This document shows positions 37,812-48,918 of a stretch of 64,000 nucleotides of DNA, one piece after another. This DNA comes from a bacterium (GTDB lineage: Bacteria > Myxococcota_A > Bradymonadia > UBA7976 > UBA1532). Within the stretch, counting starts at the first letter, position 1, and every line of letters starts with the position of its first letter. A program made the translations under genes and the position numbers. Under the pieces are notes generated by a model. That model searched no databases. It was not told the origin of the DNA and saw only the letters and a program-made list of their open reading frames with translations. The stretch lies in contig JAUHYW010000061.1 in assembly GCA_030426085.1 (NCBI GenBank), positions 1-64,000 on the forward strand, read 5' to 3'.

Positions 37812-39194
37812 TCAGGCGGGGTTGTTGCGGGCCTGCTCGAGCGCGGCGTCGATCATCGCCTGGTGCTGCGCCGGATCGGCCCAGCGGGCCTGCGCCGCCT
37901 CGGACAGCCGGTCGATGGGGTCGAAGTACGCGAAGTACTGCCCCGGCTTGACCGACGGCGCGGTGTAGACCGAGATGCCGGTCTCGCGGTCGTAGTGCTC
38001 GTAGCTGTGCGCGTTGCGCTTGCCGCCGCCGCCGGGGGCGTCGACCACGAAGGTCGGCGTATTGAAGCCGGCCGTCGTACCCCGGACCCACTTCTCGAGA
38101 TCCAGCGCCGTCTGCACCGTCGTGCGCATGTCCTCGGCGCCCTTCACCATGTCGTGCACGTACACGTAGTACGGGTGCACGTTGATGTGCCCCAGCCGCT
38201 TGACGAGCAGGCCCATCGAGTCGGTCGTGTCGTTGACCCCCCGCAGCAACACCGACTGATTGCGCACGGTGATGCCCTCGGAGAACATGCGCGCCACCGC
38301 CCGCTGGCTGATGGCCGTGATCTCGTTGGGGTGGTTGAAGTGGGTGTGCAGCGCGACCTCCTTGCCGGTGTGCCGCCCCAGCGCGTGCACCTCGACCAGC
38401 GCCGAGAACCAGTCGTCGTCGCTGAGGATCTTCTGGGGCATCACCGCCAGCCCCTTCGTCGCGAAGCGGATGCGGCGGATGTTGGGCATCTCGAGCAGGC
38501 GGGTCCCGATCTCACGGATCCAGTCGGCGCGCAGGTTGAACGCGTCGCCGCCGCTGATCACGATGTCCTCCAGCTCGGGGCGGGAGGCGATGTAGGCGAA
38601 CGCCTGCGACCAGCGATCTTTCTTGGGCTTGAGCTGCACCTTCTCGACCGTGTCGGTGTCGAGGCCCACCGCGTACGACCGGGTGCAGAAGCGGCAGTAG
38701 ACCGGGCAGGTGTCGATGACCAGGAACAGCGCCTTGTCGGGGTAGCGGTGGGTCAGCCCGGGGGTCGGCGCGTCGGCCTGCTCGCCGAGGCTGTCCAGGC
38801 CGAGCTTGGGGTGGTCGGGCAGGAACCGCGACGCCAGCGGGATGAACTGGATGCGCAGCGGGTCGACCTCGGGGGCCTTCCAGTCGATCAGGCTCAGCAG
38901 ATAGGGGCTCACCCGCACCGCCATCGGCGCCCGGGCGAAGCCGGCGGCGGCGTCGTCGACGAAGCCCTGGGGCGCGATGCCCTCGATCGCCCGCAGCAGC
39001 TTGTCGGGGCGGGTGATCGTGTACTTCGACTGCCAGCGGTGGTCGAGGAAGGTGGCCTCGTCCACGTCGGCGTAGGCTGGGATGCGGCGCCAGAAGTCCC
39101 CGTCGAGGAGCTGTCCGTGGGCCAGCTCGGCGGGGTCGACGGGGGGCTTGAGGGCGGGGGGTACGTCCAGAACGGGCAGCGTATCGTCGGTCAT
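37812..39194 (-). CDS. kamA: Lysine 2,3-aminomutase family radical SAM enzyme
   Basis: The 460-residue enzyme is predicted to make beta-lysine from L-lysine with a 4Fe-4S cluster, SAM and PLP. The cluster motif CPVYCRFC is at about residues 162-169, and VISGGDAFN follows. The PLP Lys lies in DAPGGGGK near 391. The two Asp that bind the lysine amino group in the clostridial enzyme are conserved (VHDMVKG and FVVDAPGG), which favours lysine over glutamate as substrate. GGAG precedes ATG 39194. No beta-lysine acetyltransferase (AblB) is adjacent. The leader is about 190 bases and holds a small ORF. Confidence 0.88.
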   Translation of the reverse strand: MTDDTLPVLDVPPALKPPVDPAELAHGQLLDGDFWRRIPAYADVDEATFLDHRWQSKYTITRPDKLLRAIEGIAPQGFVDDAAAGFARAPMAVRVSPYLLSLIDWKAPEVDPLRIQFIPLASRFLPDHPKLGLDSLGEQADAPTPGLTHRYPDKALFLVIDTCPVYCRFCTRSYAVGLDTDTVEKVQLKPKKDRWSQAFAYIASRPELEDIVISGGDAFNLRADWIREIGTRLLEMPNIRRIRFATKGLAVMPQKILSDDDWFSALVEVHALGRHTGKEVALHTHFNHPNEITAISQRAVARMFSEGITVRNQSVLLRGVNDTTDSMGLLVKRLGHINVHPYYVYVHDMVKGAEDMRTTVQTALDLEKWVRGTTAGFNTPTFVVDAPGGGGKRNAHSYEHYDRETGISVYTAPSVKPGQYFAYFDPIDRLSEAAQARWADPAQHQAMIDAALEQARNNPA

Positions 39195-39394: not shown

Positions 39395-39423
39395 ACGATA
39401 GCCGCCCGGCCGGGGCGGATCAA
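39395..39423 (-). promoter_or_regulatory. Strong candidate promoter of the kamA transcript
   Basis: On the minus strand TTGATC (39418-39423) and TATCGT (39395-39400) have a 17-base spacer, the best match to a housekeeping promoter in the window. The -35 overlaps the stop codon of the upstream protease-like gene. Transcription should begin at about 39387. Confidence 0.55.
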
Positions 39424-41579
39424 TCGCTCGGCGCGCCGTCCGGGGGGGGCGCGGCGGGCGCCGGCTCGCGCAGCGGGATGCGATCGACGTAGCCCTCGCC
39501 TTCGTCGAGCAGGACCCCCCCGGGGCCGACGAGCGCAAACACCGGGCGCCGCTCGACGGCGAGCAGCCGGGCCGCCTCGCCGGCGGGATCGAGCGCCACC
39601 GGGAAGCCGAAGCGCGAACCCTGACGGCGCACGAAGCGGCGCACGCTCGCCGCCGGGGCGTCGGTGATCGCCACGACCGGGGTGTCGTAGGCCTCGGACC
39701 ACACCGCGAGCGCGGGCAGCGCCTCCGCGCAGGGCTTGCACGCCGGCTCCCAGAAGAAGAGCAGCGCCGGGCGCCCCTCCCCCACCGCCGGCAGCGGGCC
39801 GTCGTCCAGGGGCTCGAGGCGCATCACCGGCACCGGCTGACCGACGACCGGCGGTCGGGGCGGCAGCGGCATCGGGGCCACCGTCAGCGGGATCTCCTCG
39901 GTGCCCTTGCGCCGCCGCTTCGCCCGCCGCACCCGCAGCGCCGCCCGGGCCCCGGGGATGGCCAGCAGCGCCGCCTCGCGGAAGCCGCCCGGCCGGCGCA
40001 GCGTCCAGCCGTCCACCTCGAGGATGCGATCGCCGACCGCCAGCGACGAGGCCAGCGCCGGGCTGCCCGGCTCGAAGCGATCGACGACCGCCCCCCGGTG
40101 GCGGGGCGCGTCGCGATAGGTGACGCCCAGCCAGCCCGGGCGCAGCGCCTCGACCTCACCCTCGATCCGGCTGGCGGGCGGGAGCTGGGCCGGGGCCAGG
40201 ACCGGGGACGGCTCGGCCGCCGGAGGCCACAGGGGCGCCGACTCGCAAGCCCGCAGATCGGCGTAGCGCTCGCGCTCACCGGCCGACAGCGGCCCCGGAC
40301 CGACCAGCCGGGTGAACAGATAGGCCGCCCGGATGGCTGCGGCCTCTTGCACGTCGATGCGGGTCAGCAGCGCGGCGGCCCGGTCGACCGGCGCCCGCAC
40401 CCGGGCGATGCGGACCTGCACCTCGGGCTCGGCGGCGATCAGCTCGCCCATCGCCGCGATCGCCCGCGCCTGCTGCTTGCGTCGCTCGCCCCGATCGCGG
40501 GCCGGGCGCAGGACCCTCAGCAGCGGCTCGGCCAGCCGGCGGCGGGCGTTGAGGTCGGCCGCGCGCCACGCCTCGCCCCAGACGCCCAGCGCATAGCGGG
40601 CCCGGTCGAGCCGGTCGATCAGCGCCAGGGCGTCGCCATAGCTGCGGGGGGCGCCCAGGCCGTAGCGGGCCGACAGCCGGGCGAGCAGGCGCCAGCCGCC
40701 AGCGTCCACCGCGGTCGGCAGCCGGGCGTCGAGCAGCCGGCTCACCTCGGCGCCCCGGGCCGCCGCCAGCCCGTCGAGCGCCTCGAACAGCATCACGTCG
40801 CTGGTCAGGTGGGGCGTGTCGGGGGTGTCGTCGGTCAGCAGCACCTCGTCGTGGGCCGCCGCCAGCGTGCCGTGGCGATCGAGGGCGTCGACCATGCGCC
40901 GGAAGTGACCCACGTCGCTGCGGGCGGCCAGCTCGGGGTAGCAGCCGAAGGCCGGCCGGTCGGGGTGGGCGGCGAAGGCCCCGCACAGGTTGGGCCGGGT
41001 GCGGTGCAGATCGGCGAAGCCGCCCGAGAAGCACTGCGACATCCACAGGACCACCCGGGCGCTCTGGGGCACCGGCGCCAGATCGGCCGCCATCTCGCTG
41101 ACCGTCCACTGCTCGCCCCACAGCGAGATCGAGGTCTCGTTGCCGCCGGTCGGATCGGGCTCGCCGTGATCGGTCACCGCCACCAGCAGCGTATCGTCGG
41201 GGCCCAGGGTCGGCCCGACCTCGGTCAGCCACGCCTGCAACGACGCGCGCTTCGCCGGGCGCACCGGATCGGCGAAGCGGCCCGCCTCGAAGGTGGTGTT
41301 CTCCAGCAGCGGCTCGGGGGACAGGTCGCTGTCGAGCCGGGTGCCCTCGACCCGCCACAGATCGGTCAGCGGATCGTCGGGCAGCACCGCCCGGTCGGGC
41401 GCCGGATCGGCCCCGTCGGCCCAGAACAGCGCAACGTCCGCCGCCGGCACGCCCCGATCGGCGAGCAGGGCCAGCAGCGCGTCGACGTGCGCCTTGTGGC
41501 TGTGGTGGTTGTCCTCGGCCGATCCGCCTCCGGCGAGGATCAGCACCTTGAGGGCAGCGAGCAGCAGGGTCGACGGCAT
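39420..41579 (-). CDS. Caspase-like peptidase, PDZ and TlpA-like thioredoxin fusion
   Basis: The 719-residue protein joins three parts. First comes a clan CD (C13/C14-like) cysteine peptidase: KVLILAGGGSAEDN near the start, the catalytic His in TDHGE (about 137), and Cys in SQCFSGGF (about 182). A helical middle region follows. Next is a PDZ domain (GWLGVTYRD, GSPALASSLAVGDRILEVDG, about 480-570). Last is a thioredoxin-like domain with FFWEPACKPCAE (CxxC, about 613-616). The N terminus has only ten residues before the peptidase fold, so secretion is uncertain. TATAGT ends 6 bases before the ATG. Confidence 0.75.
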   Translation of the reverse strand: MPSTLLLAALKVLILAGGGSAEDNHHSHKAHVDALLALLADRGVPAADVALFWADGADPAPDRAVLPDDPLTDLWRVEGTRLDSDLSPEPLLENTTFEAGRFADPVRPAKRASLQAWLTEVGPTLGPDDTLLVAVTDHGEPDPTGGNETSISLWGEQWTVSEMAADLAPVPQSARVVLWMSQCFSGGFADLHRTRPNLCGAFAAHPDRPAFGCYPELAARSDVGHFRRMVDALDRHGTLAAAHDEVLLTDDTPDTPHLTSDVMLFEALDGLAAARGAEVSRLLDARLPTAVDAGGWRLLARLSARYGLGAPRSYGDALALIDRLDRARYALGVWGEAWRAADLNARRRLAEPLLRVLRPARDRGERRKQQARAIAAMGELIAAEPEVQVRIARVRAPVDRAAALLTRIDVQEAAAIRAAYLFTRLVGPGPLSAGERERYADLRACESAPLWPPAAEPSPVLAPAQLPPASRIEGEVEALRPGWLGVTYRDAPRHRGAVVDRFEPGSPALASSLAVGDRILEVDGWTLRRPGGFREAALLAIPGARAALRVRRAKRRRKGTEEIPLTVAPMPLPPRPPVVGQPVPVMRLEPLDDGPLPAVGEGRPALLFFWEPACKPCAEALPALAVWSEAYDTPVVAITDAPAASVRRFVRRQGSRFGFPVALDPAGEAARLLAVERRPVFALVGPGGVLLDEGEGYVDRIPLREPAPAAPPPDGAPSD

Positions 41580-41585
41580 CGGCGC

Positions 41586-41591
41586 ACTATA
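41586..41591 (-). promoter_or_regulatory. -10 hexamer for the peptidase-PDZ-thioredoxin gene
   Basis: TATAGT on the minus strand, preceded by GCGG, ends 6 bases before the ATG at 41579. The absence of an SD sequence suggests a leaderless mRNA. Confidence 0.45.
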
Positions 41592-45248: not shown

Positions 45249-45360
45249 AGCCGGGCTCCGGGCCCGAGGATCGGGCTCGGATGACCGCACCGTTCCAACG
45301 TTCCCGGCCCCCCGGCGCCCAGCGTTCTCATGTCAGCGGGTGTTTTCGCTATCACCTGCG

Positions 45361-45412
45361 TTGCGCGCGGGCGCCCGACGTGGCACCTTCGATCACAGGA
45401 GGCGCAGGGAGG
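45361..45412 (+). promoter_or_regulatory. Candidate promoter and purine-rich RBS region for the kinase-AAA gene
   Basis: TTGCGC (45361-45366), a 17-base spacer and CACCTT (45384-45389) resemble the promoter at 31262. AGGAGG at 45397-45402 and AGGGAGG at 45406-45412 precede a TTG codon at 45421. Confidence 0.3.
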
Positions 45413-45420
45413 CCCGGAGC

Positions 45421-48400
45421 TTGGGCGACGATGGCAACAGCGAGGGCGGGCGCAGCCCGTCCCCCGAGAGCGACGGGATCGAGCCGACGCGCACCGCGAG
45501 CGGCACGCTCTCGCCCCCCCACTCGGGCTGCGGGCTCGGGCCGCCGGGTCACAGCCGGAAGGCGGGCCCCGGCTCGCGCCTGGACGGCGGCCGCTATCGC
45601 CTCATCAGCACCCTCGCCGCCGGTGGCATGGGCACCGTCTATCTGGCCGACGACACCCGGCTCGACCGGCAGGTCGCGGTCAAGCTCGTCGATCGCGGCA
45701 CCTGGCCCGGCCCCGCGCCCGGCGCCTCCGACGAGGCGCTGATCACGGCCAGCGTCGAGCACGAGAACGTCGTCACCGTCTTCGACACCGGCCAGATCCA
45801 CGGCATGCCGTGGATCGCGATGGAGTACGTGCCCGGCCCCACGCTGCGGGCGATGCTCGACGCGTCGCAGCGCGATCCGCAGAGGACGCCGCCCCCCACC
45901 CCGCGGGAGGCCCTGGAGTACGCCCGGCAGACCGCCCGGGCGCTCGCCGCGGCCCACGCCAGCACGATCGTGCACCACGACCTCAAGCCCAGCAACATCC
46001 TGCTGCCCCACGATCGCCCGCTGAAGGTGGTCGACTTCGGCCTGTCGGTGAAGCTCAAGACCCAGGACCGGCCGTGCGGCGGGGGCACCCGGGGCTACCG
46101 GGCCCCCGAGCAGCGGCGGCGGGGGTCGCCGACGCCGGCCATCGACATCTGGGCCCTGGGGCTGCTCATCCCCGAGATGCTCGGCGCCGGCCGGCCCCGC
46201 GAGGCGCACATCGACGACCACCGGCGGGCCCCGGCGCTCGACCGGCTGCCCCCGAGCGTGGGCCGGCTGGTGCGCGACGCCCTGCGCACCGACCCCGCCC
46301 GGCGGCCGACCGCGGAGGCGGCGGTGCGGGTCCTCGAGGAGGCCCTCGAGCTGCTCACCGTGGCCGAGCAGTCGGGCCAGCTCGAGGCCCACCGCGCGCT
46401 GTGGACGATGACCAACACCCTGCTGACCCGCCGGCGGGGCGGCGTCGTCGTCGTCGAGGGGCAGCCCGACTCGGGCAAGTCGGCGCTGCTGCGGGCCCTG
46501 TGCCGGCAGGCCACCGCCGCCCGGGCGGGGCTGCTGCTGGGGCGGGGGCGCATGGAGGGCCGCCACGGCTCGTTCGGCCCGTGGCGCGAGATCCTGCGCG
46601 ACGCCATCGCCCGAGCCACCGACGGCACCGCCGAGGACCTCGCCGCGCGCCTGCCCGAGCGCCTGCGCCACCGGCTGCCCCTGATCCAGCCGGTCGTGCC
46701 GCTCGACGGGGGGCTGGCCGAGCAGCCGACGCTCGACGAGCCGGTGCGGGCCGGGGCGACCCGCGAGCTGCTGCACGGGGTGCTCACCGCCTGCACCGAC
46801 CGGCCGACGCTGATCCTCATCGAAGACGCGCAGTGGATGGACTCCGCCTCGTGGCACCTCGTCGAGCAGTTCGCCGCGGCAGAGCCGCCGCAGCCGCACC
46901 TCGTCGTGGTCTTCACCCAGGTCATGACCCCCCGCCCGGCGGGCTACGAGCGCCTGCTGCGCAGCGCCCGGCTGGTGAAGATGGCCCCCGTCGCCGCCCG
47001 CCACGTCAGCCGCCCGGTCGAGGTCCCCTCGGGCTTCACCCCGCTGGCGGGCATCGAGCTGACTCCGTCGATGACCCGCACCCTGGGGCGGCTGGCGGTG
47101 GCCGGCCTGCGGGTGCCGCCGGGGCTCGTCGACGCGCTGGGCATCGACGAGGCGGCGGTCCAGCCGCTGATCGACCTCGGCGGCCTGGGGCAGGTCGACG
47201 GCGACCTGATCTTCCGGGACAAGGCGCTGCACGACGAGCTGCGCCAGGGGCTCGCGCCGACGACGCGGGCGCGGGCCCACACCCTCGTCGCCGACTGGCT
47301 CGCCGGGCGCAGCGCGCGCACCGCGCCCGAGCTGGCCGAGATCGCCCACCACCGGCTGAAGGCGTTCCGGCTGCACCTGGGCGCCGAGCAGGAGGCCGCC
47401 CGCGAGGCGCTGCTGACCGCCGCCGCCGCCGCCGGGCTGGCCACCCTGCGGGCCGGGGCGTGGCCCGAGGCGATCCTGTGGCTCGAGGTCTGCGTGCGCA
47501 ACAAGCCGGTGCGCCGGTCGTGGTCGGCCCCGCCCATCGAGATCCTGGAGTGGTACCGCCATCTGGCCGACGCGGCCCACGGCCGGGGCGACGTCGGCGC
47601 CCGGGCGGGCTACGGCACCCGGGCCCTGGCGCTGCTCGGGCGCGAGCCGCCCGCCGGCCGGGTCGGGCTCGCCCTCCACGTCGCGTTCGGGGTGCTGCGC
47701 CTGCTCGTGCCCCCGCTGCGCATGCGCAACGCCATCCAGCGGCGGGCGGCGCGGCTGGCCTCGCTGGCCCTCGGCGACCGGGCGGTGCGCCACTGGTTCG
47801 ACAACGACCGGCTGGCGATGGGCCACGCGCTCATCTGGGGTCTGCTCGAAGCGCGCTACGCCGGCCCGTCGCCCGAGCTGGCCCGGGCCCGGCTCGAGAT
47901 GGGCGCCGCGATCGGGTTCGCCGGCCGCCCCCGGCTGGCCCGGCGCTTCATCGCGCCGGCCCTGCGCTGGGCCGAGGGGGCCGACGCCCCGTCGATCGAG
48001 GCCTACGGGCACCTCATCGACGCCCTGATCCACGTCGGGCGGTGCGGCTGGTCGACCGTCGAGCAGCGGGCCCTCGCGTGCCAGCGCGTCAGCGACCGCA
48101 TCAACGACGCCCGGGGCTGGTGCTCGGCCCAGGTGGTGCGCTTCTGGGCGGCCCACTACCGAGGACGGGTCGAGACGGCCCGGGCGCTGGCCGACGCGCT
48201 GCTCCAGCGGGCCGCGCGCAACGGCCACGAGCAGCATCAGGCGTGGGGCCACCACTCGCTGTCGATCGTCTCGCTGCGTACGGGGCGCCCGGCCGATGCC
48301 CGGGAGGGCCTGACCCGGGCGCTGGAGCTGGTCGGCGAGAACGGCCCCCGGGTGCAGCGGTTCCAGCTCTACGGCACCCGGGCGCTGGCCTGCTGCCGCA

Positions 48401-48918
48401 TGGGCGACACCCGCCGGGCCGGCGAGGACGTCGCCCGGGCGCTCGAGCTGGCCGACACCCTCGGGCCCCCGGCAGCCCACGCGCTGCTCGAGAGCTACGC
48501 CGCCCTCGTCGAGGTGCTGCTCGAGGCGCTCGCCGCCGACTGGAGCCGGCGCACCCGGCGCGGCTGGCAGCGCGACCTGCGGCGGGCGCTGCGGCTGCTG
48601 CGGCGCTACGCCCGGGCCTTCCCGGTGGGGCAGGCCCGCTACGCGCTGCTGCGGGGCCGGGCGCTGCTCCAGCGGGGGCGGCGACGGGCCGCGGCGCGCA
48701 GCTTCGAGCGGGCCCGGCACGCCGCCCATCGGCGGGGGCAGCGCTTCGAGGAGCGCCAGGCGCAGGCCGCGCTGAAGCGGCCCGAGGGCGACCCGGTCGA
48801 CGCCCACGCGCCGACCCTCGAGGTGCGGGCCCCGAAGCCGGCCCTGCCGACGCCCCGGATCAGCCTGAACGTGCTGACCGCGTCAGCGCCCCACAGCTCG
48901 GGCCACATGGATGGGTGA
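45421..48918 (+). CDS. Ser/Thr protein kinase fused to an AAA ATPase and TPR-like region
   Basis: The protein of about 1165 residues starts at TTG 45421 or another nearby codon. An intact kinase domain has AAGGMGTVYLA (about 65), VAVKLV, HHDLKPSNILL (about 185; HHD instead of HRD) and DFGLS (about 204). An AAA/STAND-type ATPase follows with P-loop GQPDSGKSALL (about 346) and Walker B LILIEDAQW. The remaining 550 residues are helical repeats of TPR character. Such myxobacterial kinases are cytosolic signal integrators. It is directly followed by a GMC oxidoreductase and a hydrolase, so it may control them. No membrane helix is seen. Confidence 0.85.
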   Translation: MGDDGNSEGGRSPSPESDGIEPTRTASGTLSPPHSGCGLGPPGHSRKAGPGSRLDGGRYRLISTLAAGGMGTVYLADDTRLDRQVAVKLVDRGTWPGPAPGASDEALITASVEHENVVTVFDTGQIHGMPWIAMEYVPGPTLRAMLDASQRDPQRTPPPTPREALEYARQTARALAAAHASTIVHHDLKPSNILLPHDRPLKVVDFGLSVKLKTQDRPCGGGTRGYRAPEQRRRGSPTPAIDIWALGLLIPEMLGAGRPREAHIDDHRRAPALDRLPPSVGRLVRDALRTDPARRPTAEAAVRVLEEALELLTVAEQSGQLEAHRALWTMTNTLLTRRRGGVVVVEGQPDSGKSALLRALCRQATAARAGLLLGRGRMEGRHGSFGPWREILRDAIARATDGTAEDLAARLPERLRHRLPLIQPVVPLDGGLAEQPTLDEPVRAGATRELLHGVLTACTDRPTLILIEDAQWMDSASWHLVEQFAAAEPPQPHLVVVFTQVMTPRPAGYERLLRSARLVKMAPVAARHVSRPVEVPSGFTPLAGIELTPSMTRTLGRLAVAGLRVPPGLVDALGIDEAAVQPLIDLGGLGQVDGDLIFRDKALHDELRQGLAPTTRARAHTLVADWLAGRSARTAPELAEIAHHRLKAFRLHLGAEQEAAREALLTAAAAAGLATLRAGAWPEAILWLEVCVRNKPVRRSWSAPPIEILEWYRHLADAAHGRGDVGARAGYGTRALALLGREPPAGRVGLALHVAFGVLRLLVPPLRMRNAIQRRAARLASLALGDRAVRHWFDNDRLAMGHALIWGLLEARYAGPSPELARARLEMGAAIGFAGRPRLARRFIAPALRWAEGADAPSIEAYGHLIDALIHVGRCGWSTVEQRALACQRVSDRINDARGWCSAQVVRFWAAHYRGRVETARALADALLQRAARNGHEQHQAWGHHSLSIVSLRTGRPADAREGLTRALELVGENGPRVQRFQLYGTRALACCRMGDTRRAGEDVARALELADTLGPPAAHALLESYAALVEVLLEALAADWSRRTRRGWQRDLRRALRLLRRYARAFPVGQARYALLRGRALLQRGRRRAAARSFERARHAAHRRGQRFEERQAQAALKRPEGDPVDAHAPTLEVRAPKPALPTPRISLNVLTASAPHSSGHMDG

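Follow-up and report, generated by a model that had tools for sequence, protein, structure and literature searches.

Legumain uses the catalytic triad Cys189-His148-Asn42, and in caspases and metacaspases a backbone carbonyl is found at the position of Asn42 (PMC9604545). The specificity of legumain for Asn is given by a zwitterionic S1 pocket consisting of Arg44, His45, Ser216, and Asp231 (PMC4357240). Neither PDZ nor thioredoxin domains are mentioned in a survey of prokaryotic caspase homologs (PMC3501461). Here we analyzed a stretch of bacterial DNA of 64,000 nt (the window), in which an original prediction had placed a peptidase, a PDZ domain, and a thioredoxin domain in one chain. The claim that no described protein shows this order was borne out within the open-access papers searched, where we found no description of the fused combination.

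Domain Layout of the 719 aa Protein

The gene at 39,420–41,579 on the minus strand is a single uninterrupted frame that starts with ATG at 41,579. Reading frame, Pfam, and profiles of the individual parts agree on a complete protein of 719 aa with a C13-like peptidase, a helical segment, a PDZ domain, and a TlpA-like thioredoxin domain. By Pfam, the order from the N to the C terminus is peptidase, PDZ, thioredoxin. The legumain-like peptidase domain covers residues 11–300 (40,680–41,549; all parts of the gene are on the minus strand) and was assigned by a PF01650 match and by aligning a profile with legumain and with a clan CD protein from Geobacter. The PDZ domain (approximately residues 480–557; 39,909–40,142) was recognized in the Pfam scan by PF00595 (E-value 4.5e-6, 27.4 bits with a cut-off of 23.2) and PF13180 (E-value 3e-5). 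The TlpA/AhpC-type thioredoxin domain (residues 575–700; 39,480–39,857), which contains a CxxC motif and cis-Pro679, was supported by alignment, by solved relatives, of which CcmG/CycY, DsbE-like chains, ResA, and StoA were closest, and by an AhpC-TSA/TlpA match above cut-off at residues 580–680 (PF00578, E-value 1.6e-8).

The residues that are catalytic by alignment are His138 (41,166–41,168) in TDHG at residues 136–139 and Cys183 (41,031–41,033) in SQCFSGG at residues 181–187. The redox motif CKPC with Cys614 and Cys617 lies at 39,729–39,740. The intact His and Cys of clan CD, the PDZ domain, and the CxxC motif were thus all present in one chain, with His, Cys, and CxxC where the original prediction had seen them.

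The domain list of that prediction lacked a conserved segment of about 165 residues between peptidase and PDZ domain (residues 301–465; 40,185–40,679). It is kept together with the peptidase in the long-type members of the family and closes the protease unit with an invariant Cys445-Glu446 pair, and the same C-terminal Cys-Glu is found in stand-alone relatives. The segment is predicted to be helical by a low-confidence model only; structure prediction from two sequences reached a mean pLDDT of 39.9 and a pTM of 0.28. A search of solved chains found no significant relative of the segment, LSAM included. One member, L014/L043 in genome G010, has a single in-frame TAG inside the helical segment.

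Relation of the Peptidase Domain to Legumain and Caspases

The peptidase had been described as caspase-like, and this assignment had to be corrected to legumain-like (C13). In hmmscan, PF01650 (Peptidase_C13) matched the window protein with an E-value of 1.4e-4 and 21.9 bits, just below the cut-off of 22.8. A genome search with the same model gave 22.7 bits (25.2 with neighbors) for the window gene and matched no other gene of that genome. The model also reached 8 of 13 orthologs at E < 0.01, the best with 7.6e-6. The caspase model PF00656 showed no match to the window protein at E ≤ 1 in the Pfam scan, and the ten loci found by it in a search of the genome (G000) did not include the window gene. 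Besides the window gene, this genome harbors ten C14 caspase-like genes.

When the peptidase domains of 14 orthologs were combined in a profile and compared to human legumain, N24, H28, H138, C183, and C213 corresponded to Asn42, His45, His148, Cys189, and the YACYYD cysteine. The single matches were weak (whole-chain E-value 0.02), and the strength of the comparison lies in the occurrence of all landmarks in order. The complete catalytic set of legumain (C189-H148-N42) thereby has aligned and conserved counterparts in C183, H138, and N24. Asn24 (41,508–41,510), aligned by profile with the third catalytic residue of legumain (PMC9604545), was invariant in all long-type members whose N terminus is covered. 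Since legumain uses Asn42 and C14 enzymes use a backbone carbonyl, N24 is a C13-like trait. These comparisons suggest that the window peptidase is related to C13 and stands at the edge of that family.

The S1 pocket differed from that of legumain. In an alignment of low identity only H28 had a counterpart (His45), the position of Arg44 varied, and the position of Asp231 was occupied by His225; this pocket is more a hallmark of legumain than of C13 peptidases in general. Because of these differences, cleavage after Asn is not expected.

The Domain Order Is Conserved in Relatives

A first survey comprised 96 genomes, i.e., the genome of the window and relatives, and revealed 16 long-match loci, one of them that of the window. 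In each tested neighborhood of these loci, the profiles of the four parts matched in the same order. Within the window's own family, the full protein was present in 8 of 13 genomes with one copy each. In a second survey, 379 genomes of the phylum were searched with a profile, which brought in eleven more long-type members from other families. Six of them (L092, L094–L098) had all four parts by profile. No PDZ domain was recognizable in L093, and L101 showed a weak thioredoxin match with CPSC kept. L091 and L099 stop after the PDZ domain, while profiles recognized no tail in L100, which by our own reading may carry a degenerate PDZ-like stretch. Altogether, a thioredoxin-type tail was found in 24 relatives from about ten families of the phylum.

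The combination could be an artefact if motifs matched by chance or if separate genes were misassembled. We give this explanation practically no weight, since both surveys showed the same order, the first in 16 loci and the second in further ones, with full-length E-values down to 0. The order was also identical in independent assemblies from other genera, families, and orders, and these refuted the artefact reading. Because the order recurs in about ten related families, we concluded that the fused protein represents a real, apparently undescribed, protease family.

A scan of genome contigs for relatives revealed the congener only, viral contigs and plasmids contained no relative of the whole protein, and none of the defense-system models matched.

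Stand-Alone Peptidases and Free PDZ-TlpA Proteins

The second survey also revealed a set of stand-alone relatives (L102–L110, in genomes G178, G230, G276, G176, G137, G246, G344, G096, and G356) without PDZ or thioredoxin domain. Their frames of 526–859 codons showed a peptidase match only and end directly after Cys-Glu. The HG and the Cys of the active site are present in them, but positions 28 and 31 are occupied by different residues. When a maximum-likelihood tree was built from the peptidase domain, the long type and this stand-alone sister group separated with full support. Mapping of the label "with thioredoxin" onto the tree required 4 changes compared to 10.2 in shuffles, and one gain and three losses would suffice to explain its history.

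All four parts of the protein are under purifying selection, with dN below dS between congeners; a comparison of two f2 genomes gave a dN of 0.2–0.4 with saturated dS. A pseudogene reading was rejected in view of this selection and of the frame without stops.

The same class, and other parts of the phylum, also contain free PDZ-TlpA proteins of about 300 residues (L053–L058, L059, and L034), most of which have an evident signal peptide. Since such a free protein aligned with the fused tail across both domains, the tail corresponds to a two-domain unit that also exists alone. No stand-alone peptidase of the family was found within 6–8 kb of the free f6 PDZ-TlpA genes, and these genes therefore do not represent the operon in split form. 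The protein appears to be a C13-type endopeptidase with a helical extension, fused to a PDZ-TlpA module that also exists free in the class.

Invariant Cysteines and a Possible Thiol Reductase in cis

Residue conservation was counted in 36 sequences, comprising 27 long-type members and the stand-alone relatives; 24 sequences have the thioredoxin domain. C183, C199, G200, C213, C445, and E446 were invariant (36/36), and the catalytic Cys was accordingly kept in all 27 long-type members. H138 was kept in 26 of the 27 (35/36 overall). There are exactly six cysteines in the window protein, and all of them are conserved: the catalytic one, the CxxC pair, and three extra cysteines, namely the non-catalytic Cys199 (40,983–40,985), Cys213 (40,941–40,943), which by profile alignment corresponds to a Cys of legumain, and Cys445 (40,245–40,247) of the Cys-Glu pair. 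Because stand-alone relatives that end after C445 keep C199, C213, and C445, these three are part of the protease unit rather than of the tail.

Thioredoxins of the TlpA/ResA/CcmG type are reductants of disulfides outside the cytoplasm and are fed by DsbD/CcdA. The reading we favor, with a rough probability of 0.35, is a clan CD protease of the C13 type (activity predicted) that would be kept competent by the TlpA-like domain in cis, with the PDZ domain as docking site. The TlpA-like domain would act as thiol reductase and keep the protease thiols reduced, its targets being oxidized Cys183, a disulfide between two of C199, C213, and C445, or both. The PDZ domain would dock substrates or a partner and, going by its fold, may recognize C termini. 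As C213 aligns with a legumain cysteine, C199-C445 would by elimination be the likely special disulfide and would anchor the helical segment by its end to the peptidase, next to the S1 loop. That this bond forms a cysteine latch, opened in cis by the TlpA-type reductase that the PDZ domain aims, and so provides a built-in activation switch, is a quite improbable extension. The genome of the window contains two genes of the DsbD/CcdA family, which could serve as electron source for the tail.

The extra cysteines may cut both ways: they are possible targets of a reductase, yet they are kept without a fused reductase. Against a reductase in cis would also speak that it appears dispensable for some members. 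C614 and C617 were kept in 23 of the 24 thioredoxin tails. The sole exception, L023 (genome G054), has SGKG instead of CxxC with an intact protease dyad and is a natural redox-dead version. L019 (genome G002) alone differs at His138, which is replaced by Gln, and is a candidate for a natural pseudo-peptidase, since the catalytic Cys and CxxC are retained. The expectation that dyad and thioredoxin cysteines are conserved in orthologs therefore held, except for these two proteins. L091, L099, and L100 are long-type members without thioredoxin domain, in which the dyad is intact, as are all three extra cysteines. From three relatives without the domain and one without CxxC it follows that the thioredoxin domain is not obligatory for the protease; together with the loss of His in L019, this indicates that the two predicted activities are separable. 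The redox-controlled protease of the original prediction hence found no support.

The independent losses of His, of CxxC, and of the whole thioredoxin domain would also fit an arrangement in which the PDZ-TlpA part mainly serves for targeting or as a scaffold, or works as an oxidoreductase in its own right, uncoupled from the peptidase. We regard this as unlikely, because order and CxxC were kept in nearly all of the 24 divergent members and the 4 changes on the tree amount to few losses.

Localization, Gene Start, and Neighborhood

Export signals were read by eye and from hydropathy. Evident signal peptides were seen in L020, L023, and L024, and an N-terminal membrane helix in L021/L022. No classical signal peptide was seen in the window's family, where the first strand begins about 10 residues after the Met. 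Export thus appears clear in distant relatives only and not in the window's order. As no standard signal peptide precedes the first strand, a periplasmic redox role is uncertain in that order.

The localization also bears on the possibility that the three invariant non-catalytic cysteines bind a metal, e.g., zinc together with His or Glu446, instead of forming disulfides, and that the thioredoxin domain does not act on them; this would apply above all to a cytoplasmic window protein. Their odd number, the invariance of E446, and the fact that the window's order shows no clear signal peptide are compatible with a metal site. We nevertheless consider it very unlikely, because the distant members L020, L023, and L024 have the same cysteines together with clear signal peptides, and disulfides are usual where such proteins are exported.

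Another explanation for the joint presence of the domains is that the PDZ domain captures exposed C termini, the CxxC motif breaks disulfides of the substrate, and the peptidase then cuts the loosened substrate, as in quality control or in digestion of foreign protein. The free exported PDZ-TlpA protein implies that this pair has a job of its own, and the natural separation of protease and redox parts would make sense if only a subset of substrates needed the redox part. However, nothing ties the protein to any substrate, the window protein has no evident export signal, and its S1-pocket residues are unlike those of legumain, so that we rate this explanation as rather unlikely.

Just upstream of the ATG, inspection revealed a −10-like hexamer, TATAGT (41,586–41,591, minus strand), that is also present in the congener. 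This suggests a leaderless start at the ATG at 41,579; no full promoter consensus was found. The downstream neighbor on the same strand (37,812–39,194) is a radical SAM gene of the KamA family, identified by TIGR00238 above cut-off and by synteny. Models for lysine aminomutase and EpmB were both below cut-off for this gene. It lies downstream of the peptidase gene in 8 genomes of two families (that of the window and seven others), in which KamA is 72–92% identical compared to 32–73% for the peptidase. Near the peptidase genes of G005, G006, G002, and more distant families it was absent. We treat it as part of a shared locus with no mechanistic link seen. The window also harbors, at 45,340–48,918, a Ser/Thr kinase fused to an AAA_16 ATPase.

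Discussion

If the coupling of reductase and peptidase is real, the protein would be a protease that contains its own redox switch, and a bacterial equivalent of legumain whose regulator sits in the same chain; its sulfur chemistry may be tied to its predicted cutting activity. Even without coupling, the members delineate a C13-like family in bacteria with large genomes that is coherent and, like its tail, apparently undescribed. Since natural knock-outs without the His, without CxxC, without the tail, or with the peptidase alone already exist, the domain roles can be tested directly.

Of the known systems, legumain (MEROPS C13, clan CD) is the best family match. Asn42-His148-Cys189 correspond to N24-H138-C183 and His45 to H28, a Cys near the S1 loop is aligned with C213, and a helical C-terminal extension follows the peptidase (PMC4357240; PMC9604545). 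In contrast, the PDZ-TlpA tail and the invariant C199 and C445 have no place in legumain. With caspases, metacaspases, and orthocaspases (C14) the protein shares the clan CD dyad HG...C-S-G and a weak profile match to Geobacter 3bij, but PF00656 misses the gene and Asn24, at whose position C14 enzymes have a backbone carbonyl (PMC9604545), is invariant in the long type where the N terminus is covered. The tail resembles TlpA, ResA, and CcmG (DsbE) in its AhpC-TSA fold, CxxC, and cis-Pro; unlike these, it is located behind a protease and a PDZ domain and, in the window protein, lacks the usual Trp directly before CxxC (EPACKPC). As in proteases of the HtrA/DegP type, the protease precedes the PDZ domain, and the PDZ domain of the window protein scores against the DegP model; the window protein, however, is a cysteine and not a serine protease and has an additional thioredoxin domain.
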